This document shows, piece by piece, positions 13,284 to 30,728 of a stretch of 64,000 bases of DNA. The position numbers were made by a program, and so were the translations under genes. The stretch comes from Loktanella sp. Lineage in GTDB: Bacteria; Pseudomonadota; Alphaproteobacteria; Rhodobacterales; Rhodobacteraceae. Each line of letters begins with the position of its first letter. Position 1 is the stretch's first letter. The notes beneath the pieces are model-generated. The model saw nothing but the letters and a program-made list of their open reading frames with translations. It did not search any database and was not told the origin of the DNA. The stretch lies in the NCBI GenBank assembly GCA_024635625.1, contig JAGXIQ010000025.1, positions 1 through 64,000 of the forward strand. The letters are read 5' to 3'.

Positions 13284-14434
13284 GGGAGTACCACACCGGG
13301 CGGGTAGATCGCGACGCCGGTCATCGTTTGGTTGATATGCAAGCCGTTGTGCTGTTCGCCATAGGTCGAAAAACCAACAACATTATAATCCGCGAGGACC
13401 TGACTCACGGCGCCGGACTGCTGCTTTTGCTCTGCCTCAATCCGGCGCAGGATGCAGTCAAAGGCGATGATCGTGTCCGGTGTGCCGATATCAGACAGTG
13501 CCCCTAATTCACGCTCTAGATGAGCGGACATATTTTCTGAATCCGCCAACGTCAGCACCATGCCTTCGTCGATGGCCGAAAAGAACACCAGCGCACCGTC
13601 CTTGGTCACCTGTTGGATTGCACGAACGTGGTGCCGTCCGCCAAAGCGCACAACGACCGGGTAGGCGGCGAAAGTGAAGGGGTCCAGCTGCGCCGGGTCT
13701 TTGCCTAGCAAGCGGGCATATTCGCTTGCCGCATTTTCGGCGTTGATCTCGTGGACGATGCGCGCCTCGGGGTCGGCGCGGGTCACGACCATGCGGCGAT
13801 CTGTCGGCGTCAGGTGGTCAAGGCTGAAAACCTTGACCGGGCAGCAGGTCCGGACGCAGGTCAGCACGGCAATGTCATGCATCACTTGGCCACCATATGC
13901 GACTGCTGTCGCGGCAAAGCGGGTACCGTCACCGGACGATCCGCCGAATAGCTGGACTTGGCCTAACCCGTGCATGACCATGGCCACCACGGCGTCCTCT
14001 CGGCGCGACAGGCCGTCCACCAACAGAATTGCAAATTCGTTCTGCCAGTGGGGGGCCGTAGCCGTCAGCGCCGAGCGTTTACGGATAATGTCGCGCACCG
14101 TCGTGTCAGGGTCCAGCGCGTTCAAATCGGGGATAAGAATGGTTTCCGTTTCGAAATGGCTGACGGGCAGGCCAATCGCGACGATCCCGCCCTCGCGGTA
14201 CCCGTCCGAGATTTCGCCAGCTGTCACGCAGCCTATAACGCTGGTGCCCACTAACGCATCCGAAAGAGCCGCGATGAGGGTCGCAAAGTCCACATCGGGC
14301 GCAGCAAAGACCGCCAACAATGATAAAGGGACGTCGCCGAGTTGCGCCAAAACTTGTGCCACCGCATCTGCACTTGGATGGGCCACGTGCGCGCGTCGCA
14401 CCAGTGACGCAGGCAGACCCGCATTGCCGATCAT
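13280..14434 (-). CDS. FIST-domain sensory protein (NosP-like)
   Basis: A 384-residue soluble protein with FIST_N (roughly 35-225) followed by FIST_C (roughly 230-365, ending near VGFSTYGEQHNG). FIST proteins are input modules for signalling partners; the Pseudomonas NosP is a haem-containing FIST protein that controls NahK. The gene is immediately upstream of, and overlaps, the hybrid kinase, so it is the probable sensory partner. Whether this protein binds haem or a small ligand cannot be read from sequence. Confidence 0.85.
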   Translation of the reverse strand: MIGNAGLPASLVRRAHVAHPSADAVAQVLAQLGDVPLSLLAVFAAPDVDFATLIAALSDALVGTSVIGCVTAGEISDGYREGGIVAIGLPVSHFETETILIPDLNALDPDTTVRDIIRKRSALTATAPHWQNEFAILLVDGLSRREDAVVAMVMHGLGQVQLFGGSSGDGTRFAATAVAYGGQVMHDIAVLTCVRTCCPVKVFSLDHLTPTDRRMVVTRADPEARIVHEINAENAASEYARLLGKDPAQLDPFTFAAYPVVVRFGGRHHVRAIQQVTKDGALVFFSAIDEGMVLTLADSENMSAHLERELGALSDIGTPDTIIAFDCILRRIEAEQKQQSGAVSQVLADYNVVGFSTYGEQHNGLHINQTMTGVAIYPPGVVLP

Positions 14435-14474: not shown

Positions 14475-15170
14475 TCAGGGGGTCTTTTGCAACAGGCTGG
14501 AATAGCTGGCTTCTTGAGCGATCAATACAGCCTGTGTGCGGCTTTGGACGCCCAGCTTGCGCATGATAGCGGTAACATGGGCCTTGACCGTCGTTTCGGC
14601 GATGGTCAGATCATAGGCAATCTGCTTGTTCAGCTTACCTTCGCAGATCAATTGTAGAATCGTACCTTGCTGGCGGGTCAATTGACCCAAGCGGGCAAGC
14701 GCATCCTCGCGGTCGGTCACCGGCATCTCTGCGCCTTCGGTGATGTCGATGTCGTCGGGCAGATAAGTCTTACCCTGTGCAATTGTCTGAAATGCCGTTC
14801 GGAAGGTATCGCGTTGGGAATGCTTGGGCACAAAGCCAGCAGCGCCTGCCCGGATCGCGGCACAGATGATCCTGTGATCCGCCATAGAGGATACCACGAC
14901 CAGCGGCACCAGCGGCACCGATCGGTGCAGCCGTATCAGACCGTCTAGGCCGGTCACGTCCGGCAAATTCAGGTCCAGCACGATAACATCAGGGGCGGGG
15001 CCTTCTTGCACTGCGGCCAGCGCTGGCTCCAGACGCTCAAATGCGGTGATTTGTTCGATCCCCGTCACCGCCCGCAAGGTCAAGCGCAGCGCGTCACAAA
15101 ACAGTGGATGATCGTCGATGATCATCGCACGGGCGTCGGGGCCGAAGGGATGCTGGTCAACGGATGTCAT
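14475..15170 (-). CDS. LuxR-family response regulator (AgmR/ErbR/ExaE-like)
   Basis: Two-component regulator of 231 residues. The receiver domain carries the acidic pair in IIDDHPLF, the phospho-acceptor Asp66 in VIVLDLNLPD and the Lys in FVPKHS. The C-terminal HTH (about 160-222) has the LuxR pattern GKLNKQIAYDLTIAETTVKAHV. It is the first gene of the set regulator-FIST-kinase, 40 bases before the FIST gene. Regulators of this type activate PQQ-alcohol dehydrogenase genes in Pseudomonas; the adjacent quinoprotein gene is the inferred target. Confidence 0.88.
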   Translation of the reverse strand: MTSVDQHPFGPDARAMIIDDHPLFCDALRLTLRAVTGIEQITAFERLEPALAAVQEGPAPDVIVLDLNLPDVTGLDGLIRLHRSVPLVPLVVVSSMADHRIICAAIRAGAAGFVPKHSQRDTFRTAFQTIAQGKTYLPDDIDITEGAEMPVTDREDALARLGQLTRQQGTILQLICEGKLNKQIAYDLTIAETTVKAHVTAIMRKLGVQSRTQAVLIAQEASYSSLLQKTP

Positions 15171-15265: not shown

Positions 15266-17032
15266 TTAGTTAGCTTCAGCGAATTGGCGCGGCAGTTTGA
15301 ACGTCCACAGCATCCCGCCTTGGTTCAGGTAGCTGACGGTCTGCGCGACTTCGCCACCCCAAAGAGGAACGGCGCCACCCCAACCCGACATGATGGACAC
15401 ATACTGTTCGCCATCCTGTTCCCACGTGATCGGCTGACCGACAACGCCGGAACCGGTCTGGAACGACCACAGCTTTTCACCAGTCTCGTCGTCAAAGGCG
15501 ATGAACTCGCCCTCTGGCGTGCCGGTGAAAACCAGACCGCCAGCGGTGGACATGACGCCACCCCACAGCGGCGCGGGGTTTTTGAATTCCCACTTGATGT
15601 CGCCGGTATCTGGGTCAATCGCCTTCAACGAACCGATGTAGTCTTCGTACAGCGGCTTGATGGTGAAACCGGACCCAAGGTAGGCGGCACCCTGCTTGTA
15701 GGTCACAGGCTCGTTCCAGATATCCATGCCCCATTCGTTGGACGGCACATAGAAGTTACCGGTGTGCTGGCTATAGCTGACTGGCATCCAGTTCTTGCCA
15801 CCAAGGAACGACGGTACGGCAAAGACGGTTTCTCCCTTAGCGCCATCTGCGGCGGCAGACGGATCGCCCGGACGGTTCTCTTCGTTGTAGATCGGGCGAC
15901 CATTTTCATCGATGCCCGAGGCCCAGCTGATCTGGGTTACAAACGGATGGGCGCTGACGAACGCGCCGTCTTCGCGGTTCAGAACGTAGAAAAACCCGTT
16001 CCGGTCGGCAGTGCCAAAGCGCTTGTTGCCCTCTCGGTCGGTATAGGCGACCACTTCGTTGACGCCGTCATAATCCCATCCCTCGCGCGGGGTGGTCTGG
16101 AAATGCCACTTGATCTCGCCTGTGGCAGGATCGATGCCGACGCGGGATGCGGCGTACAGGTTATCACCCGCGTTGCCTTCTACCGGTGTGCCTGCATTGC
16201 GCAGGTGGCTGTTCCAAGGCGAAGGGTTGCCCGCACCGAACACCAGCGTGTCTGTGTCGGCGTCGTACGAACCACCCAGCCACGTCGCGCCGCCGCCAGT
16301 TTTCCACATGTCGCCCGGCCAAGTCGCGTTCAGCGTGCCGGTCATGGTGCTTTCTTCGCCGTTCAGCGTGCCCATGTGACCTTCGATCATCGGACGGGTC
16401 CAGACGATTTCGCCAGTCTCGGCGTTGCGGGCCTGCACTTCGCCGACGATGCCAAATTCCCCGCCAGAGTTGCCGGTGATGACTAAGCCGTTCACGATGA
16501 TCGGGGCGGCGGTATAGGAATAGCCCGCCTTATAATCCGCGATCTTCTGGTTCCAGACCACGTCGCCGGTCTTGCGGTTCAGTGCGACCATGCGCGCGTC
16601 CAGCGTGCCAAAGTAAATGTTGTCGCTATAGATCGCAGCGCCGCGGTTTACGACGTCACAGCATGGCAGGATACCTTCGGGCAGACGGGCGTCATACTGC
16701 CAAGCCTCTTTGCCGGTAGCGAGGTCGATTGCGTAGATTCGCGAATAAGACCCGGTGATATACATCATGCCGTCATAAACGATTGGCTGGGTTTCCTGAC
16801 CGCGTTGCTTCTCTCCTCCCAAAGAGAATGCCCAAGCAGGGACTAGGTTCGCCACGTTTTCTTTGTTGAGCGTCTCAAGCGGGGAATAGCGCTGAAGCGT
16901 GCGCCCCATCCCGTTGGTCACGACTTGTGTGGTGATCGTCGCGTCGTTCGCGATATCGTCTTCGGTCACCTGCGCTTGCGCCATGCTGCCGGCCAGCATC
17001 ATCGCCGTCACTGCTGTAATGAACCTGTTCAT
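15266..17032 (-). CDS. PQQ-dependent alcohol dehydrogenase, predicted lanthanide type (PedH/ExaA-like)
   Basis: Periplasmic eight-bladed quinoprotein of 588 residues with a Sec signal peptide (1-20, ending AQA). The adjacent disulfide cysteines are Cys124-Cys125 in PCCDVVNRG. The catalytic Asp320 is followed two residues later by Asp322 in GWDYDGVNE; an Asp at the second position is the hallmark of rare-earth-dependent PQQ dehydrogenases such as XoxF and PedH, whereas calcium enzymes carry Ala or Ser. The surrounding GAGNPSPWN and [23 protein letters not shown] segments resemble ExaA/PedH ethanol-type enzymes more than XoxF methanol dehydrogenases. GGAGGAGA precedes the ATG. Alcohol specificity is inferred. 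Confidence 0.9.
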
Positions 17033-18916: not shown

Positions 18917-19465
18917 TTAGTTCATCGGGGCGTAGCGCCAGTTGTCCGCATCTGGCGTGACCTCTTCGGGATCATACCCCGCAGCCTGCAATCGCCGCGC
19001 GATCGGCAGTCCGGTGCCGGCCGCTTGATCAATCAAAGCCCGGCCAGCGGCCTCGTCCTGTGCGACGCCATAGCCGCGCAACAATGACAGGCCATAGTTG
19101 AATTGCCCGACTGGGTCGCCCGCATCTGCTGCTTTGCGGTCCCAATCGGCGGCGGCATCGGGGTTGTACGTGCCCCCAAAACCGTTGTTGTCCAGATAGC
19201 CCATCCAGGTCATCGCCCCGGTGTAACCTTGGTCGGCGCAGGTCTGGAATGTTTCGCGCGCGGCGCCGTGCCGCCCGGATTTCGTCATCAGGTACCCTGC
19301 TGCGCAATTGGTGATGCTGGTACGGCCTGCTGCGATATCCTCTAGTACCTTGTTCATTGTCAGTTCTTCGGGGTTGGTCGTGCCGTATTCATCAGCCAAC
19401 GCAGCACTGCTCCACAGTGCTGTGACGAGGGCGAAGATATTCGCCGTTTTAGTGTACCGGATCAT
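18917..19465 (-). CDS. Periplasmic Sel1-like repeat protein of the PQQ locus
   Basis: A 182-residue protein with a signal peptide (about 1-24, ending ALA-D). At least two Sel1-like repeats are seen: SGRHGAARETFQTCADQGYTGAMTWMGYLDN and DAAADWDRKAADAGDPVGQFNYGLSLLRGYGV, written here only as landmarks of about 85-150. Two cysteines, one in ITNCAAGYL and one in QTCADQ, could form a disulfide. The ATG at 19465 overlaps the stop of the beta-propeller gene as ATGA, so the three minus-strand genes form one operon. Sel1 repeats mediate protein contacts; the specific function is unknown. Confidence 0.7.
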   Translation of the reverse strand: MIRYTKTANIFALVTALWSSAALADEYGTTNPEELTMNKVLEDIAAGRTSITNCAAGYLMTKSGRHGAARETFQTCADQGYTGAMTWMGYLDNNGFGGTYNPDAAADWDRKAADAGDPVGQFNYGLSLLRGYGVAQDEAAGRALIDQAAGTGLPIARRLQAAGYDPEEVTPDADNWRYAPMN

Positions 19466-20424
19466 GGCATTACCCGCAGCGCGGCCCCCCAAGGAAAACG
19501 TCCCACGGCGATCGAGGTTTCTGCCACCTGATCCGCCACGTCAATTACGGTGACATCACTGCTGACGCCGTTCGTGGTGAACAACTTTGTTTCGTCGGCA
19601 TTAAAGGCCAAATGCCAAACCCGGCGCCCCGTCAGGATATAGCGTTCCACCTCATAGGTTTCAGCATTCACGACAGCGACATGGTTTGCTGGTCCAAGAG
19701 CGACAAAAGCAGTCTTCTCGTCCTCTGTCAGCGCAAAGCCTACGGGCTGGATCAGTTCCGGCAAGACACCGGGGATCGCGAAACGAATTTTGGCGATTTC
19801 TTTCTGGTCGGCTGTGTCAAAGACCGTCACCGTGCCGCCGATTTCTGCGCTGACCCAGAGCTCTGTGCCATCCTTGACGAAATTCGCATCGCGCGGGCGG
19901 TTGTCTACCAGCGTATTTGCATAGATCGTCTGGGTCGTCGTATCAATCCAATGCGCCATATTTGTCGTTTCCGACGTCGTGATGACCGTCTTGCCGTCGG
20001 GCGATACCGCCATCCCCTCGGGCTCTATGCCGACGCTTATCTGCGCGACAACCGTGCGGCTTTCGACATCCACCACGGTGGTGATCGCGTCGTCTTCGTT
20101 CGCGATATAAAGATGCTTTCCATCGGGATGGAGCACGAATTGTTCAGGGTCTTCGCCAGAGGGCAGGTTGTGCAGGACTTCGCCCGACGCGGGGTCGATG
20201 ACCTGCACGGTATTACTGGCCGAGGCGCAGACATAGACGACAGAGAAATCATGCGCAAAGGTGATGCCCCTTGGCCGTTCTCCGACGGGAATCGTGCGGG
20301 TGACTTCCAGCGTCTCTGCGTCGATCACGCTGATTGTATCGTCGCGTTCGTTGGTGACCCAGATTTCATCGGCAAGGACCGGGGCAGGGATTGTCAGCAG
20401 GGCAGCAAGGGCGAGGGGTCTCAT
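19462..20424 (-). CDS. PQQ-associated YVTN beta-propeller protein
   Basis: A 320-residue periplasmic protein with a signal peptide (1-18, ending VLA-D) and repeated YVTN/NHL-like blades such as SVIDAETLEVTRTIPVGERP and HVAVVNAETYEVERYILTGRR. It matches the beta-propeller family that regularly accompanies PQQ-dependent alcohol dehydrogenases. The start is ATG 20424, one base after the stop of the upstream binding-protein gene; the longer frame adds residues before the signal peptide. Its biochemical role is not established. Confidence 0.83.
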   Translation of the reverse strand: MRPLALAALLTIPAPVLADEIWVTNERDDTISVIDAETLEVTRTIPVGERPRGITFAHDFSVVYVCASASNTVQVIDPASGEVLHNLPSGEDPEQFVLHPDGKHLYIANEDDAITTVVDVESRTVVAQISVGIEPEGMAVSPDGKTVITTSETTNMAHWIDTTTQTIYANTLVDNRPRDANFVKDGTELWVSAEIGGTVTVFDTADQKEIAKIRFAIPGVLPELIQPVGFALTEDEKTAFVALGPANHVAVVNAETYEVERYILTGRRVWHLAFNADETKLFTTNGVSSDVTVIDVADQVAETSIAVGRFPWGAALRVMP

Positions 20425-20425
20425 G

Positions 20426-21574
20426 TCAGTCTCCAAACGCGGTGCAAGTGGATTCAGGGCGGTCACCGCCAAGGGTGTCGAGTTCCGTCACCGGATGCAG
20501 AAATCCTTCTAACGGTGCTGTCGCCACTACGGCGCGGGCGTCCACCAGCGGGATCGGCTGGCGCAATTGACCGTTCCATGTCCGGAACGAAAGGGGCCGC
20601 CCTTTAAAACCGGCCAGCGTAAAGACATCGCCCAGCATGTAATCGCGCAGGATGCTAAGGTCGGCACTGTCGGTGCGCGTCACCGCCTCTCCGATGGCGC
20701 GTATTGCTGCCCACGCACTATAGTCGATGGGCCGCATCCCGCGACCCGCAGAATCGCGGAAGCGGGATTGCAATTGTTCCGCGCCCCATTGTTCCACTGC
20801 GGGCGACCACGCGACGGGAGTCAGCCCTTCGGATCCGCCCACGGGCCGCGGCTCCCATGTGTTGTAATTCAGGTAGCGCCCGAAATCATGAATCTCGTCC
20901 GCGACAAGCAACATGTCAAAATCACCAAGTCGCTGGGTAAAACTCGGCACCTCATCCGTAGTGGACCGGCGGATGTCACCGGTAAATCCCCACGGCGCGT
21001 CGCCACGCATCTTTAGTCCGAATTTGTTGGCACTGGCCCGCAATGCATCAGCAAACGCAAGATCACTGTCCGCAGCGCCGCTGACCAAAGCCACATCAGT
21101 CCATCGTTTTGTCATCAGGAATTGCGCCAGCGCATCTGCACGCATGGCAAAGCTGGGGGCCGTATGCAGCAGGTTCGCGCGGCAGTCGTCATTGCGCAGG
21201 CGGTCTTCGGCGGCGGACACGTTAAAGACCAGCGCGTCCGGCAAGGCGTCTGCGATTGCCAGAACCGCGTCAGCCGACCCCTCGACCAGAACAAGTCCGG
21301 TGGTTCCTACGGCTGCTGCCAGCAAGGTTTCTGGTGTCGCAGCGTCAATTTCGATCAGCTTATAGTTATGGTTAAGGAACTGCCCAGTCGTCTGGTTGTC
21401 CGTCAGTCCCAGCCGCGCCCCGGCGATACCAAGGTCAGCCGGATCGGGATCGATATCGGACAAGGTCGGGGGTGCGCGATCGTCCAGCCGCAGGTAGGTC
21501 ATAGAAACCTCGACCTGTGCCGCAGCCACACCAGCCCAACTGACCACGCAGGCCGCAAGGCACCATTTCAGCAT
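20426..21574 (-). CDS. ABC-type substrate-binding protein of PQQ alcohol dehydrogenase systems
   Basis: A 382-residue periplasmic protein with a signal peptide (1-19, ending AAA-Q). It resembles branched-chain amino acid receptor folds and in particular the subgroup linked to PQQ alcohol dehydrogenases, with MTYLRLDDRAPPTL near the mature N-terminus, GFTGDIRRSTTDEVPSF in the middle and SFRTWNGQLRQPIPLV near the end. It heads the operon with the beta-propeller and Sel1 proteins. A run of ten C (G on this strand) stands directly before the start codon and merges with the ribosome-binding region. Its ligand is unknown. Confidence 0.82.
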   Translation of the reverse strand: MLKWCLAACVVSWAGVAAAQVEVSMTYLRLDDRAPPTLSDIDPDPADLGIAGARLGLTDNQTTGQFLNHNYKLIEIDAATPETLLAAAVGTTGLVLVEGSADAVLAIADALPDALVFNVSAAEDRLRNDDCRANLLHTAPSFAMRADALAQFLMTKRWTDVALVSGAADSDLAFADALRASANKFGLKMRGDAPWGFTGDIRRSTTDEVPSFTQRLGDFDMLLVADEIHDFGRYLNYNTWEPRPVGGSEGLTPVAWSPAVEQWGAEQLQSRFRDSAGRGMRPIDYSAWAAIRAIGEAVTRTDSADLSILRDYMLGDVFTLAGFKGRPLSFRTWNGQLRQPIPLVDARAVVATAPLEGFLHPVTELDTLGGDRPESTCTAFGD

Positions 21575-21579
21575 AAGGA

Positions 21580-21589
21580 CCCCCCCCCC
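21580..21589 (-). repeat. Ten-base C/G homopolymer at a ribosome-binding site
   Basis: Ten consecutive C on the plus strand (G on the coding strand) lie 5 bases before the ATG at 21574. The tract occupies the position expected for the Shine-Dalgarno sequence, so slippage would change spacing. The tract itself is plain in the sequence; phase variation is inference. Confidence 0.5.
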
Positions 21590-21628
21590 TTCAGTTGACC
21601 TTACCGTGGCCCTGCGTCCAGTGGCATA

Positions 21629-21640
21629 CGACCATGGTCG
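21629..21640. promoter_or_regulatory. 12-base palindrome CGACCATGGTCG in divergent promoter region
   Basis: Perfect palindrome in the 157-base region between the minus-strand binding-protein operon and the plus-strand cytochrome operon. Ten of its bases recur at 17143-17152 in the other divergent region of the locus, and TGCAC follows both copies within 20 bases. Candidate operator, not known to match a published consensus. Confidence 0.33.
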
Positions 21641-21731
21641 CCCTCCCCAAATGCATTGCACAAAGGTCCAATACCGATAAGGCAATGCTCCGGTCTAAGA
21701 CTTGTAGCAACGCATCTGGGAGGAGACGATT

Positions 21732-22427
21732 ATGACACTGCGCACCCCGCGACTGGCCCTACAGGCCACGGCCTTTGCACTGATGGCAGGTACTGCATTT
21801 GCCGCCGGCCTGCCGCTTGGCATCACAGAGGTCGACAACGCAGGCTTGCCCGACGTGGGCGAAGAGTGGCTGACAGAGAACCCCTACCGCGATGGAGGGG
21901 CAGAGGTCTGGACCCGCGCCATCGAAGTAGGCGAAAGCGCCTTTACCCAAAACTGCGCCCGTTGCCACGGTTTGGGCGCCATTTCCGGTGGTCTTGCCCC
22001 GGACCTGCGGATGCTAGAGGCGTCGGATTACGATGATGAATGGTTCACCGAACGCTTTATCAACGGCGCTACGCAGGACGGCATTACAAAGATGCCCGCC
22101 TTCGGTGACGTCCTAAGCCAAAAAACAGCATGGGCAATCCGCACCTACATAGAGACGCGGCCTGATGACAAAGCTGTTACAGCCGAGAGCCACGCCCTGA
22201 AGGAACTGCGGGATGAATTAACGCAATGGTCCAAGGGCGAAGGCACCCCGGACGAGGCCGTTATGAAGGCGAAACTGGACGAAATCGCGGCGCGGATCCC
22301 AACCCTGTCGGGTGCCCCCATCGCGGACTCTGTCGCGTTTCATGCAGCCGAACAATTGAATGGCACGCCCGAATCTTATGCAAGCGCAGCAGAGACCCTG
22401 ACCGTCGGTCTGTCGGTTCACGAGTAA
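21732..22427 (+). CDS. Cytochrome c550, PedF-like
   Basis: A 231-residue periplasmic monohaem cytochrome c with a signal peptide (about 1-25, ending AFA-A). The haem site is Cys75-x-x-Cys78-His79 in NCARCHGLGA, with a Met candidate for the sixth ligand in ITKMPAFGD. It resembles the PedF family that takes electrons from PQQ alcohol dehydrogenases. It starts an apparently single operon reaching through coxM. GGGAGGAG precedes the ATG. The C-terminal 100 residues carry no haem and are typical of the family. Confidence 0.86.
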   Translation: MTLRTPRLALQATAFALMAGTAFAAGLPLGITEVDNAGLPDVGEEWLTENPYRDGGAEVWTRAIEVGESAFTQNCARCHGLGAISGGLAPDLRMLEASDYDDEWFTERFINGATQDGITKMPAFGDVLSQKTAWAIRTYIETRPDDKAVTAESHALKELRDELTQWSKGEGTPDEAVMKAKLDEIAARIPTLSGAPIADSVAFHAAEQLNGTPESYASAAETLTVGLSVHE

Positions 22428-23329
22428 TGACCCTGCGGTTGCCTTTGACTATGACAGTGTTGACCTGCTTTGCGCTGGGTGTGGCGGCACCGGCCTTTGC
22501 GGCATGTGAAGGTTATGTTCCACCACCCAAATTGCAGAACCCGAACCGCGACATCGTGGGGCAGGACCTAGACACTATTCAGGCGCAGGGGTTCATTACA
22601 TTTGCCGCTTACGAAAACTTTCCGCCGTGGTCTTATGACGACGGCGGGAAACCTGCAGGCGTGGATATCGAGATTGGCGCATTGATTGCCGAAGAACTCG
22701 GGATCGATGCGCGCTTTGATCTGATTCCTGCTGCTGAAACCGTAGAGTCCGATTTGCGCAACTGGATCTGGCAAGGACCGCCGACCGGAGGCACCGTCAA
22801 CAACGTGATGTTGCACGTCCCCTATGACGTGAATTTCGCCTGTCGCGTTGATCAGGTGGTGTTTACCGGACAATACGCGAAGGAAAGCGTCGCCATCGCC
22901 TATAATCTGGCCGACTATCCGGATGATCCACCGGTCCCAGCCTACTTTCGGTATGACACCGTTGGCGTCGAAAACGACACCATCGCTGACTTCTACCTTG
23001 CCAGCATTGGCAACGGAATGCTGATCCCTAAAATAAAGCATTATCAGACTGTTGGCTTGGCGATGGATGCAATGGAAGATGGCGAGGTCATGGCCGTCGC
23101 CGGTCCACGTGCCCAGTTGGAAGCCGGGCTGACTGACAAAGGTGGTGTGCACCAACCACCTCTGCCGGGTCTTGCTGTCGGCACATGGACGATCGGTCTG
23201 GCGGTGCACACGCGCTACCGCTACCTTAGCTATGCGGTGGACGACGCGATCCGTGCTGCCCTAGACGACGGGCGCATCGCGGCCATCTTCGCCGCCCACG
23301 GCCTCACCTATGACGCGCCCCAGCGCTAA
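22427..23329 (+). CDS. Quinoprotein-associated periplasmic binding protein (MxaJ/XoxJ-like)
   Basis: A 300-residue protein with a signal peptide (about 1-25, ending AFA-A) and the fold of amino-acid-type solute receptors, with GFITFAAYENFPPWSYDDGGKPAGVDIEIG landmarks around residues 45-75 and LIAEELGIDARFDLI next. This family accompanies PQQ dehydrogenases; XoxJ and MxaJ are thought to help activate the quinoprotein rather than to feed a transporter. The ATG shares a base with the PedF-like stop codon, and coxG begins 18 bases downstream. Confidence 0.82.
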   Translation: MTLRLPLTMTVLTCFALGVAAPAFAACEGYVPPPKLQNPNRDIVGQDLDTIQAQGFITFAAYENFPPWSYDDGGKPAGVDIEIGALIAEELGIDARFDLIPAAETVESDLRNWIWQGPPTGGTVNNVMLHVPYDVNFACRVDQVVFTGQYAKESVAIAYNLADYPDDPPVPAYFRYDTVGVENDTIADFYLASIGNGMLIPKIKHYQTVGLAMDAMEDGEVMAVAGPRAQLEAGLTDKGGVHQPPLPGLAVGTWTIGLAVHTRYRYLSYAVDDAIRAALDDGRIAAIFAAHGLTYDAPQR

Positions 23330-23347
23330 ACCGGAGTAAGAAACGAC

Positions 23348-23872
23348 ATGGAACTTAAGGACGAACGCGACATCGCGGCCCCACCCGAGGTGGTCTGGGC
23401 TGCACTGCTCGACGCCGACGTGCTACGCCAGTGCGTGCCCGGCTGCACAGAGATGGAAGGCAACCCCGAGGATGGATTTACCGCCACCGTAGTGCAAAAG
23501 GTCGGTCCGGTGAAGGCGACCTTTAAGGGCGAGGTGACGCTGTCTGAAATGAAAGCGCCACACAGTCTGACGATTGCTGGCCAAGGCAAGGGTGGGCCTG
23601 CGGGTTTTGCATCTGGCGGGGCCGACGTGGTGTTGACAGCGTCCGAGCTCGGCACGAAGCTAAGTTATGACGTGAACGCCAAGGTCGGCGGCAAAATGGC
23701 CCAACTGGGCAGCCGGATCATTGACGGTTTTGCGCGAAAGATGGCGGATCAGTTTTTTGACGACTTCAAAAAAGTGGTCGAAGGCGACGGTGCAGAAGAG
23801 GCGCCAGCTGAAGACGCTCCGGTGGCCGAGAAAAAAGGTTGGGTCAAGCGCCTGATCGGAAACAAAGACTAA
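23348..23872 (+). CDS. coxG: CoxG-like SRPBCC protein
   Basis: A 174-residue protein of the CO dehydrogenase subunit G family: N-terminal [22 protein letters not shown], then [16 protein letters not shown] and [34 protein letters not shown] landmarks over about 55-125. CoxG helps attach CO-dehydrogenase-like enzymes to the membrane and the quinone pool. The acidic linker ([12 protein letters not shown]) ends in a basic amphipathic tail, [10 protein letters not shown], consistent with membrane contact. It lies between the MxaJ-like gene and coxS in one transcription unit. Confidence 0.88.
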
Positions 23873-23895
23873 CAAGAATTCAGGGAGGAGATGTC

Positions 23896-24378
23896 ATGAA
23901 AGTGACGATGAAGGTTAACGGGCGTGCGGTGTCTGGCGAAGTTGAGGGGCGGACACTGCTCGTTGATTTCCTGCGCAACGATTTGCGCCTGACTGGTACG
24001 CACGTAGGTTGTGACACGTCCCAGTGCGGGGCCTGCACGGTGCATGTGGATGGCAAACAGGTCAAATCCTGCACGATGTTCGCCGCAGAGGCCGACGGCG
24101 CAGAAGTCGCAACAATCGAGGGTGTCGCGGCACCGGACGGCACATTGTCGTCGATCCAGCAGGCATTTCAGGATCACCACGGCCTGCAGTGCGGTTTTTG
24201 CACCCCGGGCATGGTTATGGCGGCGGCGTCACTGCTGAAAGACAATCCTAAGCCCACAGAGGCCGAAGTGCGTCACCATCTGGACGGCAACATTTGCCGC
24301 TGCACCGGTTACCACAACATCGTCAAGGCGATCATGGCGGCATCCGGGCAAGAGATGCCAGCGATGGCGGCGGAGTAA
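23896..24378 (+). CDS. coxS: Molybdenum hydroxylase small subunit, 2x[2Fe-2S] (CoxS-like)
   Basis: A 160-residue iron-sulfur subunit. The plant-type 2Fe-2S cluster is bound by the cysteines in [10 protein letters not shown] and KSC; the second, alpha-helical cluster by CGFC and CRCTGY. The start is ATG 23896, with GGGAGGAG at 23883-23890. It passes electrons from the molybdenum site to the flavin subunit. A perfect 11-bp hairpin separates it from coxL. Confidence 0.93.
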
Positions 24379-24433
24379 TTCGAATTTTCGCAATAATTCG
24401 GACACAAGTTTTGAGCTAAAAATTTGGTGTCGA

Positions 24434-24458
24434 GAAAAGTCTTCGGCGAAGACTTTTC
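24434..24458 (+). terminator. Perfect hairpin between coxS and coxL
   Basis: GAAAAGTCTTC and its exact complement GAAGACTTTTC close a 3-base loop (GGC). It lies in the 108-base gap within the cox operon and has no T-tract, so it may act in mRNA processing or as a partial terminator. It may also belong to a dispersed repeat family. Confidence 0.6.
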
Positions 24459-24486
24459 GGGCACCACACTCTGGGAGGAGAGATCA

Positions 24487-26850
24487 ATGCCCAAGGATAG
24501 CGGTATCGGCGCCAGCAGCAAGCGGCGCGAAGACGTCCGGTTTCTGACCGGTTCGGGAAACTACACCGACGACATCAACATTTACGGCCAGCTTTACGTG
24601 CATTTCCTGCGCGCTGACGTGGCACACGCCAAACTAAATGGTGTGGATACTAAGGACGCCGAAGCCATGCCCGGCGTCGTACGCATCTTTACTGGTGCCG
24701 ACTTCGAGGCTGTGGGCTCTATCCCATGTGGCTGGCTGATCACCGACCGCCACGGCGATCCGATGCAGGAACCGCGTCACCCTGTTCTGGCGCACGGCAA
24801 AATCCGTCACGTGGGCGAACCAATCTGCGCCGTCGTTGCCGAAACGCGAGAGCAGGCCCGTGACGCTGCAGAGGCCATCGTACTTGACTACGAAACACTT
24901 CCTGCCGTCATCAACATGAAGGACGCGGTCAAGGCCGATGCGCCAAAGGTACATGACGAGCTGACCGGAAACCTTTGCTATGACTGGGGTTTTGTCGAGG
25001 ACAACAAGGGTGCTGTGGACGAGGCCATCAAGGGTGCCGCGCATGTCACGACGCTGGAACTGGTAAATAACCGTCTGGTCGCAAACCCGATGGAACCGCG
25101 CGTCGCGGTCGGTGAATACAACCGGTCTGACGACATGCACACGCTGCACACAACGTCGCAGAACCCCCACGTCATCCGTCTTTTGATGGGCGCATTCGTG
25201 CTGGGTATCCCAGAACACAAGCTGCGGGTTGTGGCCCCTGATGTTGGCGGCGGCTTTGGCACCAAAATCTTCCACTATCAGGAAGAGGCTTTTGTGACTT
25301 TCGCTGCCAAAGCGTTGAACCGCCCGGTCAAGTGGACCTCTACCCGGTCTGAGGCATTCATGTCGGACGCCCACGGCCGCGATCACGTGACCAAGATCGA
25401 ACTGGCGCTGGATGCAGAGAATAACTTTGTCGCTGTCCGCACCGAAACCTATGCGAATATGGGCGCCTACCTATCCACATTCGCACCCTCGGTTCCGACA
25501 TGGCTGCACGGCACGCTGATGGCTGGTAACTATAAGACGCCGCATATCTACGTAAACGTCAAAGCCGTCTTTACCAACACCGTGCCGGTCGATGCCTATC
25601 GCGGTGCAGGTCGGCCAGAGGCGACTTTCCAGCTAGAGCGGGTCATCGACATGGCCGCGCGCGAACTGGGCGTTGATCCGGTGGCCCTGCGTCGGCAAAA
25701 CTTTATCACCGAATTCCCTTATGCGACCCCGGTCGCCGTGGAATACGACACCGGTGACTATACTGCCACGATGGACAAGCTGATCGACATTGCCGATTTC
25801 GCAGGGTTCGAGGCACGTCGTAAGGAAAGCGAAGCCAAAGGCAAGCTGCGCGGTCTTGGTGTGAACTGCTATATCGAGGCTTGTGGCATCGCGCCGTCGA
25901 ACCTCGTCGGGCAGTTGGGCGCGCGGGCAGGTCTTTATGACGCTGCCACCGTGCGGGTCAATGCGACGGGATCAATCTCTGTCATGGTTGGCGCACACAG
26001 CCACGGGCAGGGGCACGAGACATCGTTCCCGCAGGTCATCAGCGAGATGATCGGCATCCCTGAGGATCAGATCGACATCGTCCACGGCGATACGTCAAAG
26101 ATCCCCTTTGGGATGGGTACATATGGATCGCGGTCGCTCGCTGTTTGCGGTTCGGCCATGGTACGTGCTGCCGAAAAGGTCATCAATAAGGCCAAGAAAA
26201 TTGCGGCCCATCTGATGGAAGCTTCCGAAGGCGACATCGAGCTGAAAGATGGTCGGTTCAGCGTTGCTGGCACTGACAAATCTGTAGCTTGGGGTGACGT
26301 GACCTTGGCGGCCTACGTGCCGCACAACTACCCACTGAAGGACATAGAGCCGGGGCTGGAAGAGACTGCGTTCTACGATCCGGCGAACTTCACCTACCCC
26401 TCGGGCGCCTACGCCTGCGAGGTCGAGCTTGACCCGGAAACGGGTCATGTAAAGGTCGAACGTTTCAGTGCTGCTGACGACTTTGGCAATATCATCAACC
26501 CGATGATCGTGTCTGGTCAGGTCCACGGGGGAATCGCGCAGGGCATCGGCCAGGCCATGCTGGAAGGCTGCGTCTATGATGCGGACGGCCAGCTGATTTC
26601 GGCGTCTTACATGGACTATGCGATGCCGCGGGCAGAGGACGTGCCGTTCTACACGGTCGACCATTCTTGCCAGACGCCCTGCACCCACAACCCACTGGGC
26701 GTAAAGGGCTGCGGCGAGGCCGGTGCGATCGGTTCACCGCCAAGCCTTGTCAATGCGGTGTTGGATGCGATCAACTCGGGCGCGGGCAAGAAGGTGGCGC
26801 ACATCGACATGCCGCTGACGCCAAGCCGTGTTTGGGCCGCAATGCAGTAA
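24487..26850 (+). CDS. Form II molybdenum hydroxylase large subunit (CoxL-like)
   Basis: A 787-residue molybdenum cofactor subunit of the xanthine oxidase family. The active-site loop reads AYRGAGR (residues 370-376), the form II signature; true aerobic CO dehydrogenases (form I) have AYxCSFR with a Cys for the copper ligand, which is missing here. Cofactor segments PDVGGGFGTK and the catalytic Glu744 in GCGEAGAIGSPPS are present. The start is ATG 24487 with GGGAGGAGA upstream. The substrate of form II enzymes is generally unknown; an aldehyde or N-heterocycle is more likely than CO. Confidence 0.9.
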   Translation: MPKDSGIGASSKRREDVRFLTGSGNYTDDINIYGQLYVHFLRADVAHAKLNGVDTKDAEAMPGVVRIFTGADFEAVGSIPCGWLITDRHGDPMQEPRHPVLAHGKIRHVGEPICAVVAETREQARDAAEAIVLDYETLPAVINMKDAVKADAPKVHDELTGNLCYDWGFVEDNKGAVDEAIKGAAHVTTLELVNNRLVANPMEPRVAVGEYNRSDDMHTLHTTSQNPHVIRLLMGAFVLGIPEHKLRVVAPDVGGGFGTKIFHYQEEAFVTFAAKALNRPVKWTSTRSEAFMSDAHGRDHVTKIELALDAENNFVAVRTETYANMGAYLSTFAPSVPTWLHGTLMAGNYKTPHIYVNVKAVFTNTVPVDAYRGAGRPEATFQLERVIDMAARELGVDPVALRRQNFITEFPYATPVAVEYDTGDYTATMDKLIDIADFAGFEARRKESEAKGKLRGLGVNCYIEACGIAPSNLVGQLGARAGLYDAATVRVNATGSISVMVGAHSHGQGHETSFPQVISEMIGIPEDQIDIVHGDTSKIPFGMGTYGSRSLAVCGSAMVRAAEKVINKAKKIAAHLMEASEGDIELKDGRFSVAGTDKSVAWGDVTLAAYVPHNYPLKDIEPGLEETAFYDPANFTYPSGAYACEVELDPETGHVKVERFSAADDFGNIINPMIVSGQVHGGIAQGIGQAMLEGCVYDADGQLISASYMDYAMPRAEDVPFYTVDHSCQTPCTHNPLGVKGCGEAGAIGSPPSLVNAVLDAINSGAGKKVAHIDMPLTPSRVWAAMQ

Positions 26851-26864
26851 GGGTAAAACGGCGG

Positions 26865-26912
26865 GTCCGGGGCGCAGCCCTCGGACTCCCGATGTATTTT
26901 TGACCAAAAGAC
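26865..26912 (+). repeat. Dispersed hairpin/GATATTTT repeat, copy 1
   Basis: An imperfect hairpin (GTCCGGGG...CCCTCGGAC) followed by CCCGATGTATTTTTGACCAAAAGA, in the gap between coxL and coxM. The same design (G/C-rich hairpin, then CCGGGATATTTT..G.CGAGAAGAAG) recurs at 34109 and 40291. Confidence 0.55.
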
Positions 26913-26954
26913 GGGGTGACCCGGCGATTTGGTCACAGGAAAGGAAACGACATC

Positions 26955-27740
26955 ATGTATGCATTCGAAATCGAACGGCCCACCACGCTGGATGCGGCCA
27001 AGGCAGCGATTGCCGACGGCGGGCAGGCCCTGAGTGGCGGGCAGACACTGATCCCGACGCTAAAAGCGCGTCTGGCCATGCCTGAAAAGCTTGTCAGCCT
27101 GCATTCTATCGCTGAATTAAAAGGTGTGAGCACTGACGGCGAAGGCCGGATTTGTATCAAAGGCGCGACTGTTCATCGCACAGTGGGTGACGAGGCTGGT
27201 GCTTATCCGGCATTGGCGTCGGTTGCAGCGCGGATCGGTGATCCAGCGGTGCGTAACCGCGGGACGATTGGCGGTAGTCTTGCTAATAACGACCCATCTG
27301 CCTGCTATCCGGCGGCTGCACTGGGGTCGGGCGCCACAATCTGCACGGACCGGCGCGAAATTGCAGCGGACGACTACTTTAAGGGTATGTTCACCACGGC
27401 GCTTGCCGAGGGTGAAATCGTGACCGAGGTAAAGTTCCCCGTGCCAGAGGTCGCTGCCTACGAGAAGTTCATCCAGCCGGCTTCTCGCTTTCCGCTTGTG
27501 GCGGTCTTTGTTGCAAAATTCGCGGATGGTGTGCGTGTGGCCATCACGGGTGCGTCTGAAACTGGTGTGTTCCGCTGGGCAGAGGCCGAGAAGGCCCTGA
27601 GCGACAACTTCACGCCAGAGGCGCTTGAGGGTTTAAAGATGGACCCGGACCACATGATCGCCGACTTGCACGGCGACAAGGCTTACCGGGCACATCTGTG
27701 CGCGGTCATGACAAAGCGGGCGGTCAAGAACGCGAAGTAA
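26955..27740 (+). CDS. coxM: Molybdenum hydroxylase FAD subunit (CoxM-like)
   Basis: A 261-residue flavin subunit of the CO dehydrogenase/xanthine oxidase family. The FAD contacts are SGGQTLIPTLKARL near residue 30 and NRGTIGGSLANNDPSA near residue 105. The start is ATG 26955, chosen because the family begins with MYAFEIERP-like sequence. It is the last gene of the pedF-like to coxM unit and is followed by a hairpin terminator. Confidence 0.92.
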   Translation: MYAFEIERPTTLDAAKAAIADGGQALSGGQTLIPTLKARLAMPEKLVSLHSIAELKGVSTDGEGRICIKGATVHRTVGDEAGAYPALASVAARIGDPAVRNRGTIGGSLANNDPSACYPAAALGSGATICTDRREIAADDYFKGMFTTALAEGEIVTEVKFPVPEVAAYEKFIQPASRFPLVAVFVAKFADGVRVAITGASETGVFRWAEAEKALSDNFTPEALEGLKMDPDHMIADLHGDKAYRAHLCAVMTKRAVKNAK

Positions 27741-27759
27741 ATTCACGTCCGACAAGTTG

Positions 27760-27790
27760 CCCCCGTCGCAGCGATGCGGCGGGGGTCTTC
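27760..27790 (+). terminator. Terminator after coxM
   Basis: An 11-bp stem with one mismatch (CCCCCGTCGCA, loop GCGA, TGCGGCGGGGG) followed by TCTTCT. It separates the plus-strand cox unit from the convergent apbE gene. Confidence 0.65.
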
Positions 27791-28650
27791 TATGCGGTAA
27801 AAAGGTTTCCGTCGGTATCTATCAGCCGGGCTGTCGTGTCCGTCACATGGCCAAGCGTGGCGGTAATCGCCGCGTGATCCATCAAGCAGAACGCGGTCGA
27901 TAGCGCATCAGCAACGGCCGCCGTGGGGGCCATGACGCTAACTGTTGACCAACATGGTGCCTGACCGTCACGAGATAGAATATGTGACTGACCCCCGACA
28001 GCAAGTGCCGCAGGGCTGGATGTTGCCATGGCGCGGCCCTGAAGGGTCGCCTGCGCCAATTCGCCAAAGACCGGATCAGCGATACCGATCCGCCACGGGC
28101 CGCCAAGCGCACGGTATTCCCCGATATTTATCAGCGCGTGGCTGAACCCTGCTGCGGCAAGTTCCGCAGCGATAACGTCGGTCGCAAAGCCTTGCGCGAT
28201 TCCGTTGAAGGTCAGGGCCTGATCACGGGCAAGGGTGATGCTGTCTGGTGAAAACGATACGCAATCCCAGTCGATCAGTGCGCGGGCGGCGGCGGTATCC
28301 CCACCTGTTGCCAGTGCGGTCCAAAGCGGCTGGACAGTCGGGTCGAAATAACCATTTGTCAGGCGCACCATGTCGTCAGCGGTCTGGCACAGTGCCGTGA
28401 ATTCCGCGTCGGGGGTAATCTGACCCGTCGCGTTGAGAGTTACGAGCGTCGATGGCACGTAGAGGCTGAACAAAGCCTCAATCCGGGTCAGAGTCTGGCG
28501 GACAGAAGTCAAAGCTGCCTGTGCCCCCGGTCCGGTCAAGGTGACAGAAACGTCTGCCCCAAGTGCTGTACCCTGCCAGACAGATGCTTGTGCCATCCGT
28601 GGCAGTGCAAGGGCGGCGGCAGTCAGGGATAGAAAGCGGCGGCGCTTCAT
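27790..28650 (-). CDS. apbE: FAD:protein FMN transferase ApbE
   Basis: A 286-residue ApbE-family protein that attaches FMN to a Thr/Ser of target flavoproteins in the periplasm. The N-terminus MKRRRFLSLTAAALALP fits a twin-arginine export signal. Family segments are GTALGADVSVTL, FDPTVQPLW and LTFNGIAQGFATDVIA, with INIGEYRALGG in the binding region. The start at 28650 overlaps the stop of the NosR-like gene as ATGA. The adjacent NosR-like protein, with a flavinylation motif, is the obvious substrate. Confidence 0.9.
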   Translation of the reverse strand: MKRRRFLSLTAAALALPRMAQASVWQGTALGADVSVTLTGPGAQAALTSVRQTLTRIEALFSLYVPSTLVTLNATGQITPDAEFTALCQTADDMVRLTNGYFDPTVQPLWTALATGGDTAAARALIDWDCVSFSPDSITLARDQALTFNGIAQGFATDVIAAELAAAGFSHALINIGEYRALGGPWRIGIADPVFGELAQATLQGRAMATSSPAALAVGGQSHILSRDGQAPCWSTVSVMAPTAAVADALSTAFCLMDHAAITATLGHVTDTTARLIDTDGNLFTA

Positions 28651-30728
28651 GCGGCGGCCTTTCGAGTTGCGCTGCGGGCTGCGAGGATCAGGGGGACGCA
28701 TTGTGTTGGATCGTCGTGGATCGTGACGCAGTCTAGGCACTGGAAGCATTCGTCGTACTGGATCTCTCCCGTTTTTTTGATCGCGCCGTATTTGCATTTC
28801 ACTTTGCAAAGCTGGCAGGGTGATCCGCAGTCCGCGCGGCGTGGAATCCAACTGCGAGTGCGGATCATGCCGCCAATTGCCATGACCGCGCCAAGGGGGC
28901 AAACATAGCGGCAGAAGCCCTTGAACGTCACCATGCCAAGCACAAGCCAAAAGCCTGCGTAAACCACGTAGTACCAATCGCGGACGAAAAAGACGGTGAT
29001 GGCGGTCTTGAACGGTTCGATCTCTGCCGCCTTGTCAACGTGATCGGGTGCGATAAAAACCGTGGCTACAAGACCCGCGAGGGCTGCGTATTTGATCCAC
29101 TTCAGGCGCTGGTCCCATGCGCGCGACACCTCCCACTGGGGTAGGCGCAAAAGGCGGCCTAGGTGATGGGCGAATTCCTGTAATGCGCCAAAGGGGCAAA
29201 GCCAGCCGCAGAACAAACCGCGGCCCCAAAGGACAAAGCCCAGGATGGCGACGGCCCAAATCAGCGTTCCAAAAGGGTCGTAAAGCAGGAAGTTAAATGA
29301 TCCTCCAAAGACGCTCGTGCGGATTACGCCCAGTACAGTCACGATGGACAACTGCCCTTGCCCCCACCATCCGACAAAGCCCAAAACGAAAGCAAGGATG
29401 CCAAGGCGAACAGGGGTGAAAACTGTCAACGCTGCGATCCGCTTCTGACCGGGTCCTAAGACAACCAGCAGGCCGACCAGGAACACTCCCAACACAATCA
29501 AGTCGGTCTGGCGGTTGCGGATCGCGCCAGCAAAAGCGCTTTCCTGCACCTCTTCGACTGGACGCAGGTAGAAGCGGTCGGGGGTAACGTGAGTGGTGGT
29601 TAATGTCGTCTGGCCGACCTGCGGCATAAACTGCCCGTGTTCGCGGATTGCCTGAACGTTCAGTGTCCACTCTCTGGTGGGGTCAAAGCCAAGGCGGCGG
29701 TCGGTGCGCAGAATGATCGCTGTGCCTTGCGGGGCCTGCGGCGACAGGGTTACGAACAAATCCGCATCGCGCAGTGCGATAGGTAGTCCGTCCTGTTCCG
29801 CCGACAGCCAGTCGGGAGAGGTGTTGCGGACAAAATCCGGCGATACAAGGCCGTGTCGGCCTGCGTCTATCAGCAGGATAGGCTCGTCAGTCTTCGAAAT
29901 GCGCTGAAAGGCCTGCAGTTCGCGCAGCGTCTGGTCGCCTAAGGCCGCTTTGGCAATGGACGGCGCACCGATGTCGATAATGTAAAGATCAAGGTACACG
30001 CCTTTTGGGTCCGCTTGTGCGACGGGGTCGTCATTCACGAAGACGGTGCCATCAAAGGCCGCGCTGACCTCTTTATTCAATACAGTTTTTCGGCTGACGA
30101 GGCCCTGAGCGACGAGCGCGTTCCAATCCAAGTCCTCAGTATAATCAGGATTTGGATACGCCGGAGGGGCAGAGGCCACGCCTTGCATCTTTTCACGGGC
30201 GACGGCACGGGTTGCCGCTAGGATGCTTTCATGCGCGATACGAATGCTGGCGGTGGCCTTGGTCACGCCGTCTAGATAAACCAATGCCGACCCGTCACCT
30301 GCACCGCCATAAGGTGTGCCGACAACAAGGCTTTGATTGATCGACAGGCCACGATATTGTTCAAAAAACTTGCGTAAAGGCGCCTCGCCCAGTCCTGACA
30401 CGAAGATCGGTTCGTTGTGGGAAATCAGGCGGACGTCCATGAACGTGCCGTTCAGGTCCAGCATGACAAAGATGTTGATGGGGGCACCTGAAAAACCGGG
30501 TAGGGGCGCCATCTCTTCGGTCTCGAAAACGTATCCGGCAAGTGCCCCACCGGAGTTTAGAAGTTCCCATACGCCTTTGTCGTTGACCTGTTCGCCAATA
30601 CTGAACGGGGGCATGACAAAGGGTTGCAGTGCTTCTTTAGCCAGTTGCGCGAGGGCGCTTTGCGGGCTGGCGAAGAACGCCAGACAGATTGTCAGACACA
30701 AGACAAGAAAACGAATAGATCCACCCAT
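28647..30728 (-). CDS. NosR/NirI-like FMN-binding, 4Fe-4S membrane protein
   Basis: A 693-residue protein: signal peptide (1-27), periplasmic FMN-binding domain with the flavinylation site DGVTKATAS (153-161, predicted FMN on Thr159), a beta-rich segment, about five or six membrane helices from about 415 to 640 with CGWLCP and CRYVCP motifs, and a C-terminal cytosolic ferredoxin-like part with CGSPCQLCKVKC and CFQCLDC. This is NosR architecture, which moves electrons across the membrane for N2O reductase. No nosZ or other nos gene is nearby, apart from ApbE (NosX-like). Here it may serve the quinoprotein or molybdoenzyme system. Lys157 replaces the more usual Gly in the motif. Confidence 0.85.
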   Translation of the reverse strand: MGGSIRFLVLCLTICLAFFASPQSALAQLAKEALQPFVMPPFSIGEQVNDKGVWELLNSGGALAGYVFETEEMAPLPGFSGAPINIFVMLDLNGTFMDVRLISHNEPIFVSGLGEAPLRKFFEQYRGLSINQSLVVGTPYGGAGDGSALVYLDGVTKATASIRIAHESILAATRAVAREKMQGVASAPPAYPNPDYTEDLDWNALVAQGLVSRKTVLNKEVSAAFDGTVFVNDDPVAQADPKGVYLDLYIIDIGAPSIAKAALGDQTLRELQAFQRISKTDEPILLIDAGRHGLVSPDFVRNTSPDWLSAEQDGLPIALRDADLFVTLSPQAPQGTAIILRTDRRLGFDPTREWTLNVQAIREHGQFMPQVGQTTLTTTHVTPDRFYLRPVEEVQESAFAGAIRNRQTDLIVLGVFLVGLLVVLGPGQKRIAALTVFTPVRLGILAFVLGFVGWWGQGQLSIVTVLGVIRTSVFGGSFNFLLYDPFGTLIWAVAILGFVLWGRGLFCGWLCPFGALQEFAHHLGRLLRLPQWEVSRAWDQRLKWIKYAALAGLVATVFIAPDHVDKAAEIEPFKTAITVFFVRDWYYVVYAGFWLVLGMVTFKGFCRYVCPLGAVMAIGGMIRTRSWIPRRADCGSPCQLCKVKCKYGAIKKTGEIQYDECFQCLDCVTIHDDPTQCVPLILAARSATRKAAA

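Follow-up and report, generated by a model that had tools for sequence, protein, structure and literature searches.

What would a cytosolic molybdenum hydroxylase do in a locus for periplasmic alcohol oxidation? The question is raised by a 64,000-nucleotide stretch of a Loktanella sp. draft genome (the window; contig JAGXIQ010000025.1, positions 1 to 64,000, forward strand), in which two accessory genes of pyrroloquinoline quinone (PQQ)-dependent alcohol oxidation, pedF and an MxaJ/PedG-like gene, are followed by coxGSLM, encoding a form II relative of the aerobic carbon monoxide (CO) dehydrogenases. An earlier note on this DNA had proposed a two-step route, from alcohol to aldehyde by the quinoprotein and from aldehyde to acid by the molybdoenzyme. 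Form II coxL genes are described as little known in function and unresolved in activity, with CO probably not the physiological substrate (PMC13240472, PMC6794299, PMC8141241; excerpts). Within titles and the beginnings of abstracts in the open PubMed Central literature, a scope outside which most subscription literature falls, nothing was found that connects PQQ or NosP-NahK genes with cox genes of form II, and the excerpts cited here do not make that connection either.

We propose that coxGSLM looks like an output of an alcohol-oxidation regulon and that, judged by sequence, its product is most likely a cytosolic, quinone-linked aldehyde oxidase. This reading is drawn from the recurring gene order, from repeated neighbour swaps by a regulator trio (NosP, NahK and a response regulator), and from the finding, in one genome, of the aldehyde dehydrogenase ExaC in the slot of coxGSLM; order, recurrence and a shared, repeatedly swapped regulator neighbourhood are observed directly. 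In its full form, coxGSLM would be a member of an alphaproteobacterial ped/exa-type cluster, in the part held by PedI/ExaC in Pseudomonas, with aldehyde oxidation through CoxSLM and CoxG and both halves of the pathway under the trio, to which we assign a probability of roughly 0.55. The earlier interpretation has partial support and can be broadened, with a shared alcohol-oxidation regulon in place of one operon.

The gene row and its recurrence

The sequence and its list of open reading frames place six genes on the plus strand between 21732 and 27740, as follows.

21732-22427, plus strand: pedF, cytochrome c-550 (TIGR04494, 163 bits, cut-off 122), with its stop codon TAA at 22425-22427
22427-23329, plus strand: MxaJ/PedG-like periplasmic solute-binding protein (SBP_bac_3, 32.6 bits, cut-off 26.4), stop codon at 23327-23329
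23348-23872, plus strand: coxG (PF06240, 115 bits, cut-off 22.2), starting 18 bases after the MxaJ-like gene
23896-24378, plus strand: coxS, [2Fe-2S] subunit (Fer2 and Fer2_2 above cut-off)
24487-26850, plus strand: coxL, form II molybdenum hydroxylase large subunit (MoCoBD_1, MoCoBD_2 and Ald_Xan_dh_C above cut-off; motifs AYRGAGR and GCGEAG)
26955-27740, plus strand: coxM, subunit binding flavin adenine dinucleotide, 261 amino acids (FAD_binding_5, 112 bits, cut-off 27; CO_deh_flav_C, 21.4 bits, under its cut-off of 25.5)

Base 22427 is common to the pedF stop codon and the ATG of the MxaJ-like gene, and the gene order given in the earlier note is confirmed throughout. The MxaJ/PedG-like name is given on position and fold family, since no MoxJ-type NCBIfam model matched the protein at E<=1e-3 (the query in the domain and NCBIfam scans carried one extra codon at its start). 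By eye, the translations of pedF and the MxaJ-like gene show signal-like sequences at their N-termini, in keeping with a periplasmic PedF, and in those of CoxG, CoxS, CoxL and CoxM no signal peptide was seen. Common strand and spacing suggest that the row from pedF to coxM is a single operon. The successive gaps are -1, 18, 23, 108 and 104 bases, with AGGGAGGAG inside the 23-base gap between coxG and coxS, and the long ones before coxL and coxM, the first of which folds strongly, qualify the single-operon reading. A simple promoter and terminator scan of 21500-28000 found sites no more frequently than in shuffled sequence.

Recurrence was examined in a family sample of 198 genomes spanning 197 genera, the own genome included, by a search that scored the best few candidates per genome. 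Strong matches to the MxaJ-like protein (>300 bits; next best 30 bits) were present in 41 of the 198, again counting the own genome, and around these 41 loci the pedF-mxaJ order is near-constant. Directly after the MxaJ-like gene, coxG-coxS-coxL follow on one contig in 16 loci and coxG alone in four, two of which (G106 and G031) lie at or near a contig end with coxL opening another contig, G106 also having part of coxS. An annotated 743-kb plasmid of Ruegeria sp. AD91A carries the identical order. In a class-wide sample, the MxaJ-like protein was found at E<=1e-20 in nine of 385 genomes, the own one included; among the other eight, coxGSLM follows it in G448 only. Four of the seven loci without coxGSLM there instead continue with cluster c44 (SoxYZ-like), cluster c45 and a PQQ dehydrogenase, the SoxYZ-like identity having been scanned in L135 and carried to other loci by clustering.

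The synteny is therefore not limited to the genome in which it was noticed. Of the earlier claim that PQQ accessory genes are joined with coxGSLM, the coupling itself stands, recurring in 16 of 41 loci; the quinoprotein dehydrogenase gene, on the other hand, lies outside the six-gene row and on the opposite strand. Chance placement was rejected on two grounds: the order is found repeatedly, and the link of coxGSLM to the regulator trio is independent of its link to pedF-mxaJ.

As a separate observation, G187 (L074) and G078 (L059) carry coxG without coxSLM, the next called genes being ApbE or NosR-like and coxL lying elsewhere in the assembly, a pattern that loss of coxSLM with retention of coxG would leave.

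The regulator trio and its two kinds of neighbour

Upstream of the row, the minus strand of the window carries the dehydrogenase, the trio and two further genes of the PQQ system.

11070-13283, minus strand: NahK/ErcS-like hybrid histidine kinase (NF041832, 335 bits, cut-off 400; NF041831, 381 bits, cut-off 1500)
13280-14434, minus strand: NosP-like FIST sensor protein (NF041558, 368 bits, under the cut-off of 450)
14475-15170, minus strand: LuxR-type response regulator of the trio (best model ErdR, NF041830, 156 bits, far under the cut-off of 390)
15266-17032, minus strand: PedH-like PQQ alcohol dehydrogenase (TIGR03075, 758 bits, cut-off 480), with WDYDG at the D-x-D position
19462-20472, minus strand: PQQ-associated beta-propeller protein (TIGR03866, 502 bits, cut-off 287)
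20426-21685, minus strand: PQQ-alcohol-dehydrogenase-system substrate-binding protein (TIGR03863, 458 bits, cut-off 414)

The best solved chain for the PedH-like dehydrogenase is 6zcv, which we take to be PedH, and the WDYDG of the window aligns over its WDFDG; a D-x-D motif is a mark of lanthanide use. A stop codon has been reported inside the PedH-like gene of G110 (G110:C44:270365-272116).

NahK-like kinases (E<=1e-140) occur as 67 copies in 66 of the 198 genomes, including 39 of the 40 that bear a PedH-like gene. Within 6 kb, 28 copies have a PedH-like gene and 20 a listed coxL, while 19 are near neither. Position alone predicts about 0.25 of the 67 copies within 6 kb of coxL, and the binomial figure computed for this ignores kinship, so the observed 20 should be read only as 'not chance'. 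Loci were then picked by distance (20 by nearness of kinase and dehydrogenase, 16 by nearness of kinase and coxL, four near neither), and the orders found in them are descriptions rather than rates. The order dehydrogenase-regulator-NosP-NahK was seen in all 20 of the first group; in all 16 of the second the trio stands beside coxGSLM, on the same strand in seven and divergently in nine; and neither partner was present in the remaining four.

A tree of 48 NahK rows, 25 from the dehydrogenase side and 23 from the cox side, requires nine neighbour changes, eight of them forced by supported branches, and the window kinase, itself on the dehydrogenase side, is sister to a coxGSLM-linked kinase with support 100/99. 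Twelve loci on a preset list were left out of this tree, as were rows close to neither kind of neighbour, short rows and repeats. A quick tree of 66 rows (L197 dropped, having no stop-free translation) is likewise mixed, with at least 11 and 12 forced changes.

The neighbourhood was also examined from the side of CoxG in named genomes, using the best 80 of 573 matches, some of which come from the same genomes as family-sample handles. Among 64 well-flanked loci, 41 have coxL, and 27 of these 41 also have trio or PQQ-system genes, a share biased upward because the 80 loci were chosen by likeness to an alignment made mostly of linked copies. One named genome, that of Cereibacter johrii (L193), has the trio and coxGSLM on a single strand. 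In one genome (G067) a PedC permease and a PQQ-system ATPase (TIGR03861 and TIGR03864, both above cut-off) lie upstream of coxG, divergent and with one gene between; the same exporter pair was assigned in L178, L191 and L132 by clustering rather than scanning. Apart from this, no coxL was seen near coxG in 23 of the 64 well-flanked loci (L156, L165, L169, L183 and others), where coxG stands beside other recurring gene rows.

The exporter also recurs at PQQ loci. A PedC-type permease cluster (a PedBC-type ATP-binding cassette exporter) occurs in 31 of the 41 MxaJ-like loci, that of a same-genus relative included; in the window stretch it was not found, Sel1 and beta-propeller genes abutting there (18917-20472), and in the own genome PedC is above cut-off on another contig, C115. 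The PQQ synthesis genes pqqB, pqqC and pqqE are above cut-off on contig C12 of the own genome. A PqqD match falls within the pqqE reading frame (G000:C12, 3884-5206), which may be a fusion of both.

The proposed aldehyde step

For an aldehyde step at this locus, ExaC offers a point of comparison. In G139 it lies directly after pedF-mxaJ (922 bits, cut-off 900), in the slot held elsewhere by coxGSLM. Four genomes (G005, G038, G100 and G125) carry ExaC no more than 3.4 kb from the NahK-like gene; of the listed coxL places, none in these four comes as close as 6 kb to NahK or 4 kb to the MxaJ-like gene. Since the trio of the window elsewhere adjoins either coxGSLM (20 of 67 copies) or ExaC (four genomes), and G139 has ExaC in the coxGSLM slot, the two-step route put forward earlier gains indirect support from gene content. 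Where an MxaJ-like locus had enough flank and included coxL, as in the window, an aldehyde dehydrogenase was present in none of 29 cases, and five of 26 well-flanked loci without coxL have a match, with some genomes counted twice and some loci coming from other families; among the five, the match in L037 was scanned and is ExaC. The expectation that loci lacking cox genes would carry an aldehyde dehydrogenase was thus only weakly borne out.

From such arrangements we infer co-transcription, joint regulation, an aldehyde substrate and a quinone acceptor. The PedH-like PQQ dehydrogenase would oxidize a primary alcohol in the periplasm, its electrons passing to PedF; the aldehyde would enter the cytosol and be turned into the acid by CoxSLM, with CoxG either anchoring CoxSLM at the membrane or handing electrons to the quinone pool; and the NosP-NahK-regulator trio would activate both halves. 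CoxG would probably carry quinone or draw CoxSLM to the membrane, by analogy with solved CoxG 8uds_D, which it matches at 3.4e-14, and with proteins treated in PMC13240472 and PMC11962113 (excerpts); there, CoxG-like proteins bring another dehydrogenase to the membrane and were dispensable for electron transfer. In an alignment of 32 rows, K162 at the CoxG C-terminus is invariant, and K163, G164 and W165 are each conserved in 90% or more.

Comparison with known systems

The closest parallel is the ped/exa cluster of Pseudomonas. In Pseudomonas putida, nosP, pedS1/nahK, pedF, pedG, pedH and pedI lie together (PP_2662-PP_2683), pedI/exaC encoding an aldehyde dehydrogenase linked to nicotinamide adenine dinucleotide, and without pedS1 the activity of the pedF promoter is lower on ethanol and higher on isoprenol or isopentanol (PMC12997753, excerpt). 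The window shares with that cluster, as described there, pedF, a PedG-like binding protein, a PedH-like dehydrogenase and a LuxR-type regulator, together with genes whose best models are NosP and NahK/ErcS but score under cut-off. It differs in having coxGSLM after the PedG-like gene, with no pedI/exaC found beside it, and in the adjoining ApbE and NosR-like genes.

With form I aerobic CO dehydrogenase, the window has in common the three subunits, the CoxG partner and a GE motif that aligns in the large subunit, whereas the Cys-bearing motif is replaced by AYRGAGR and TIGR02416 gives 633 bits against a cut-off of 991. The best NCBIfam models for CoxS, CoxL and CoxM are those of glyceraldehyde dehydrogenase subunits (NF041018-NF041020, presumably Sulfolobus-type), although all three remain under cut-off (655/790 for CoxL, with 168/350 and 227/290 bits for the other two). 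In acetic acid bacteria, a membrane molybdopterin aldehyde dehydrogenase acts downstream of a PQQ alcohol dehydrogenase; that enzyme is periplasmic and has cytochrome subunits, unlike the CoxSLM of the window with its lack, by eye, of any signal peptide.

CoxSLM away from the PQQ genes

Numerous observations weigh against coxGSLM as an output of an alcohol-oxidation regulon, and they are set out from here on beside the explanations that they would favor. Even among the 41 MxaJ-like loci, no cox gene follows in 21. CoxL places in the family genomes number at least 150; among the 150 listed, 16 are within 4 kb of an MxaJ-like gene, 20, in different genomes, within 6 kb of a NahK-like gene, and 114 near neither. 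Distances were counted for 138 of these, 12 rows of 55-59% identity being left out (G120, at 56%, was kept and is among the 20 NahK-linked places), and since the genomes of the 12 contain no place of a NahK-like gene or of a strong MxaJ-like match, the 16 and the 20 hold for all 150. With so few listed places beside an MxaJ-like gene, CoxSLM is not a dedicated PQQ partner. In 30 loci fetched as not adjoining an MxaJ-like gene, coxG stands beside coxSLM in 11 and is missing from 19. The latter carry an XdhC-type gene cluster in 18 cases, a VWA (coxE) cluster in 12 and an AAA (coxD) cluster in 11, and one of the 11 coxG loci has XdhC/VWA/AAA clusters; these families were scanned in L114 and extended to other loci by clustering.

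On a CoxL tree of 48 rows (L144 dropped as the same gene as L042), the contexts intermingle and resolution is poor: 27 of the 45 inner branches are open, the bootstrap had not settled, and L142 is a long row. It takes 12 changes to place the PQQ-linked label on this tree, and seven are forced, which rules out a dedicated CoxSLM clade for PQQ loci. As PQQ-linked and other CoxL form no separate clades, CoxL is not specialized for PQQ loci, and the mixing of contexts indicates, on sequence grounds, one ortholog moving between them. A stop codon has been reported inside the coxL of G131 (G131:C168:12489-14846).

Such a distribution could also arise if CoxGSLM were a general molybdenum hydroxylase whose substrate has nothing to do with alcohols, placed beside PQQ or NahK genes through repeated shuffling and kept there only because the promoter suits it. 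The 114 places near neither partner, the same ortholog in an operon with an XdhC-type gene and without coxG, and the mixed labels on the CoxL tree all fit that explanation, but it is unlikely in view of the excess of coxL-linked kinases (20 of 67 against about 0.25 expected, kinship ignored), of the eight or more switches of neighbour, from one kind of target to the other, on the NahK tree, and of three different ped-type neighbours across genomes, namely PedF-MxaJ, the NosP-NahK trio and a PedC-type exporter.

The cue and the substrate

The nature of the signal is a second point of difficulty. NosP, NahK and the regulator are the best models for the trio, yet every score is under cut-off, and a PedH-like gene is missing from 17 of the 20 genomes with NahK-linked coxL. 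By analogy with Pseudomonas aeruginosa, whose NosP is a nitric oxide sensor and whose NahK governs dispersal (PMC12997753, excerpt), NosP-NahK may sense nitric oxide instead of alcohol. CoxGSLM under the trio could then answer a nitric oxide or biofilm cue, with a substrate other than an aldehyde, and the 17 genomes lacking a PedH-like gene would agree with this. We regard it as distinctly improbable, given that the other neighbours of the trio are ExaC, in four genomes, and a PedH-like dehydrogenase, in 28 of 67 copies.

Regarding the substrate, AYRGAGR was found in all 48 CoxL proteins examined, the window included, and the form I motif (A/S)YxCS(F/L)R in none; in the window AYRGAGR stands at its place, and the assignment of this CoxL to form II in the earlier note holds on motif grounds. 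AYRGAGR is also found in other molybdenum hydroxylases (PMC13240472, excerpt). The solved chains closest to CoxL are 8uem and 1ffu, both form I CoxL of CO dehydrogenases, and the CO dehydrogenase model TIGR02416 (633 bits, cut-off 991) scores close to the glyceraldehyde dehydrogenase model (655), both under cut-off, so that the sequence models do not decide the substrate. These likenesses and the CoxG partner would be consistent with oxidation of CO by CoxGSLM; that activity was nevertheless rejected as very improbable because the cysteine motif is missing, AYRGAGR replacing it in 48 of 48 proteins, and the excerpts of PMC6794299 and PMC13240472 describe form II as an enzyme whose physiological substrate is probably something other than CO, or whose activity is unresolved.

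The distribution of ExaC also weighs on the aldehyde oxidase reading. ExaC was found in 32 of the 198 genomes (E<=1e-230), in 31 above cut-off, and at that threshold there was none in the own genome, where 12 other matches to the aldehyde dehydrogenase family (PF00171) lie elsewhere. It is only weakly rarer with linked cox genes. Of 18 genomes with PQQ-locus cox (two of the 18 split by contig ends), three have it, compared with nine of the 22 that have the dehydrogenase but no such cox (p=0.17); counting any linked cox, the figures are four of 38 where it is present and 10 of 29 where it is not (p=0.03, uncorrected and with kinship ignored), a trend and not proof. No aldehyde dehydrogenase was seen in 21 of the 26 well-flanked loci without coxL either.

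Implications for form II enzymes

Carried from the locus to the family, whose named relatives are Rhodobacterales, the argument would be that most of its 'form II CO dehydrogenases' are quinone-coupled aldehyde oxidases of an alcohol-oxidation regulon, a non-homologous replacement of ExaC/PedI, with CoxG delivering the electrons of the aldehyde to the quinone pool and the PQQ dehydrogenase delivering its own to cytochrome c; this generalization is tentative, and we hold it at somewhat less than even odds. The repeated pairing of form II coxL, a widespread gene, with a PQQ alcohol dehydrogenase, or the occurrence of ExaC in its place, provides a concrete candidate class of substrates. If the aldehyde oxidase reading is true, gene surveys that count form II as CO oxidizers would be measuring alcohol and aldehyde turnover.

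Spacer and downstream genes

One non-coding feature lies within the gene row.

24379-24486, plus strand: folded spacer between coxS and coxL, 108 bases, minimum free energy -35.5 kcal/mol, with a palindrome at 24435-24457

The palindrome has a single site in the whole draft genome, which rules it out as a dispersed repeat, and the corresponding spacer of a same-genus relative is unlike that of the window in sequence; for both reasons no function was assigned to either palindrome or spacer. A repeat pattern that was tried occurred just 8 times in 3.6 Mb and was set aside as rare. The coxS-coxL spacers of many relatives also fold strongly, and a role in subunit ratio is possible.

Downstream of the row lie genes for an ApbE flavin transferase and a NosR-like membrane protein (27790-30728 in the window). 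In many loci these come next after coxM or after the MxaJ-like gene, whether cox genes are present or not, and they may be another standard component of the PQQ locus.

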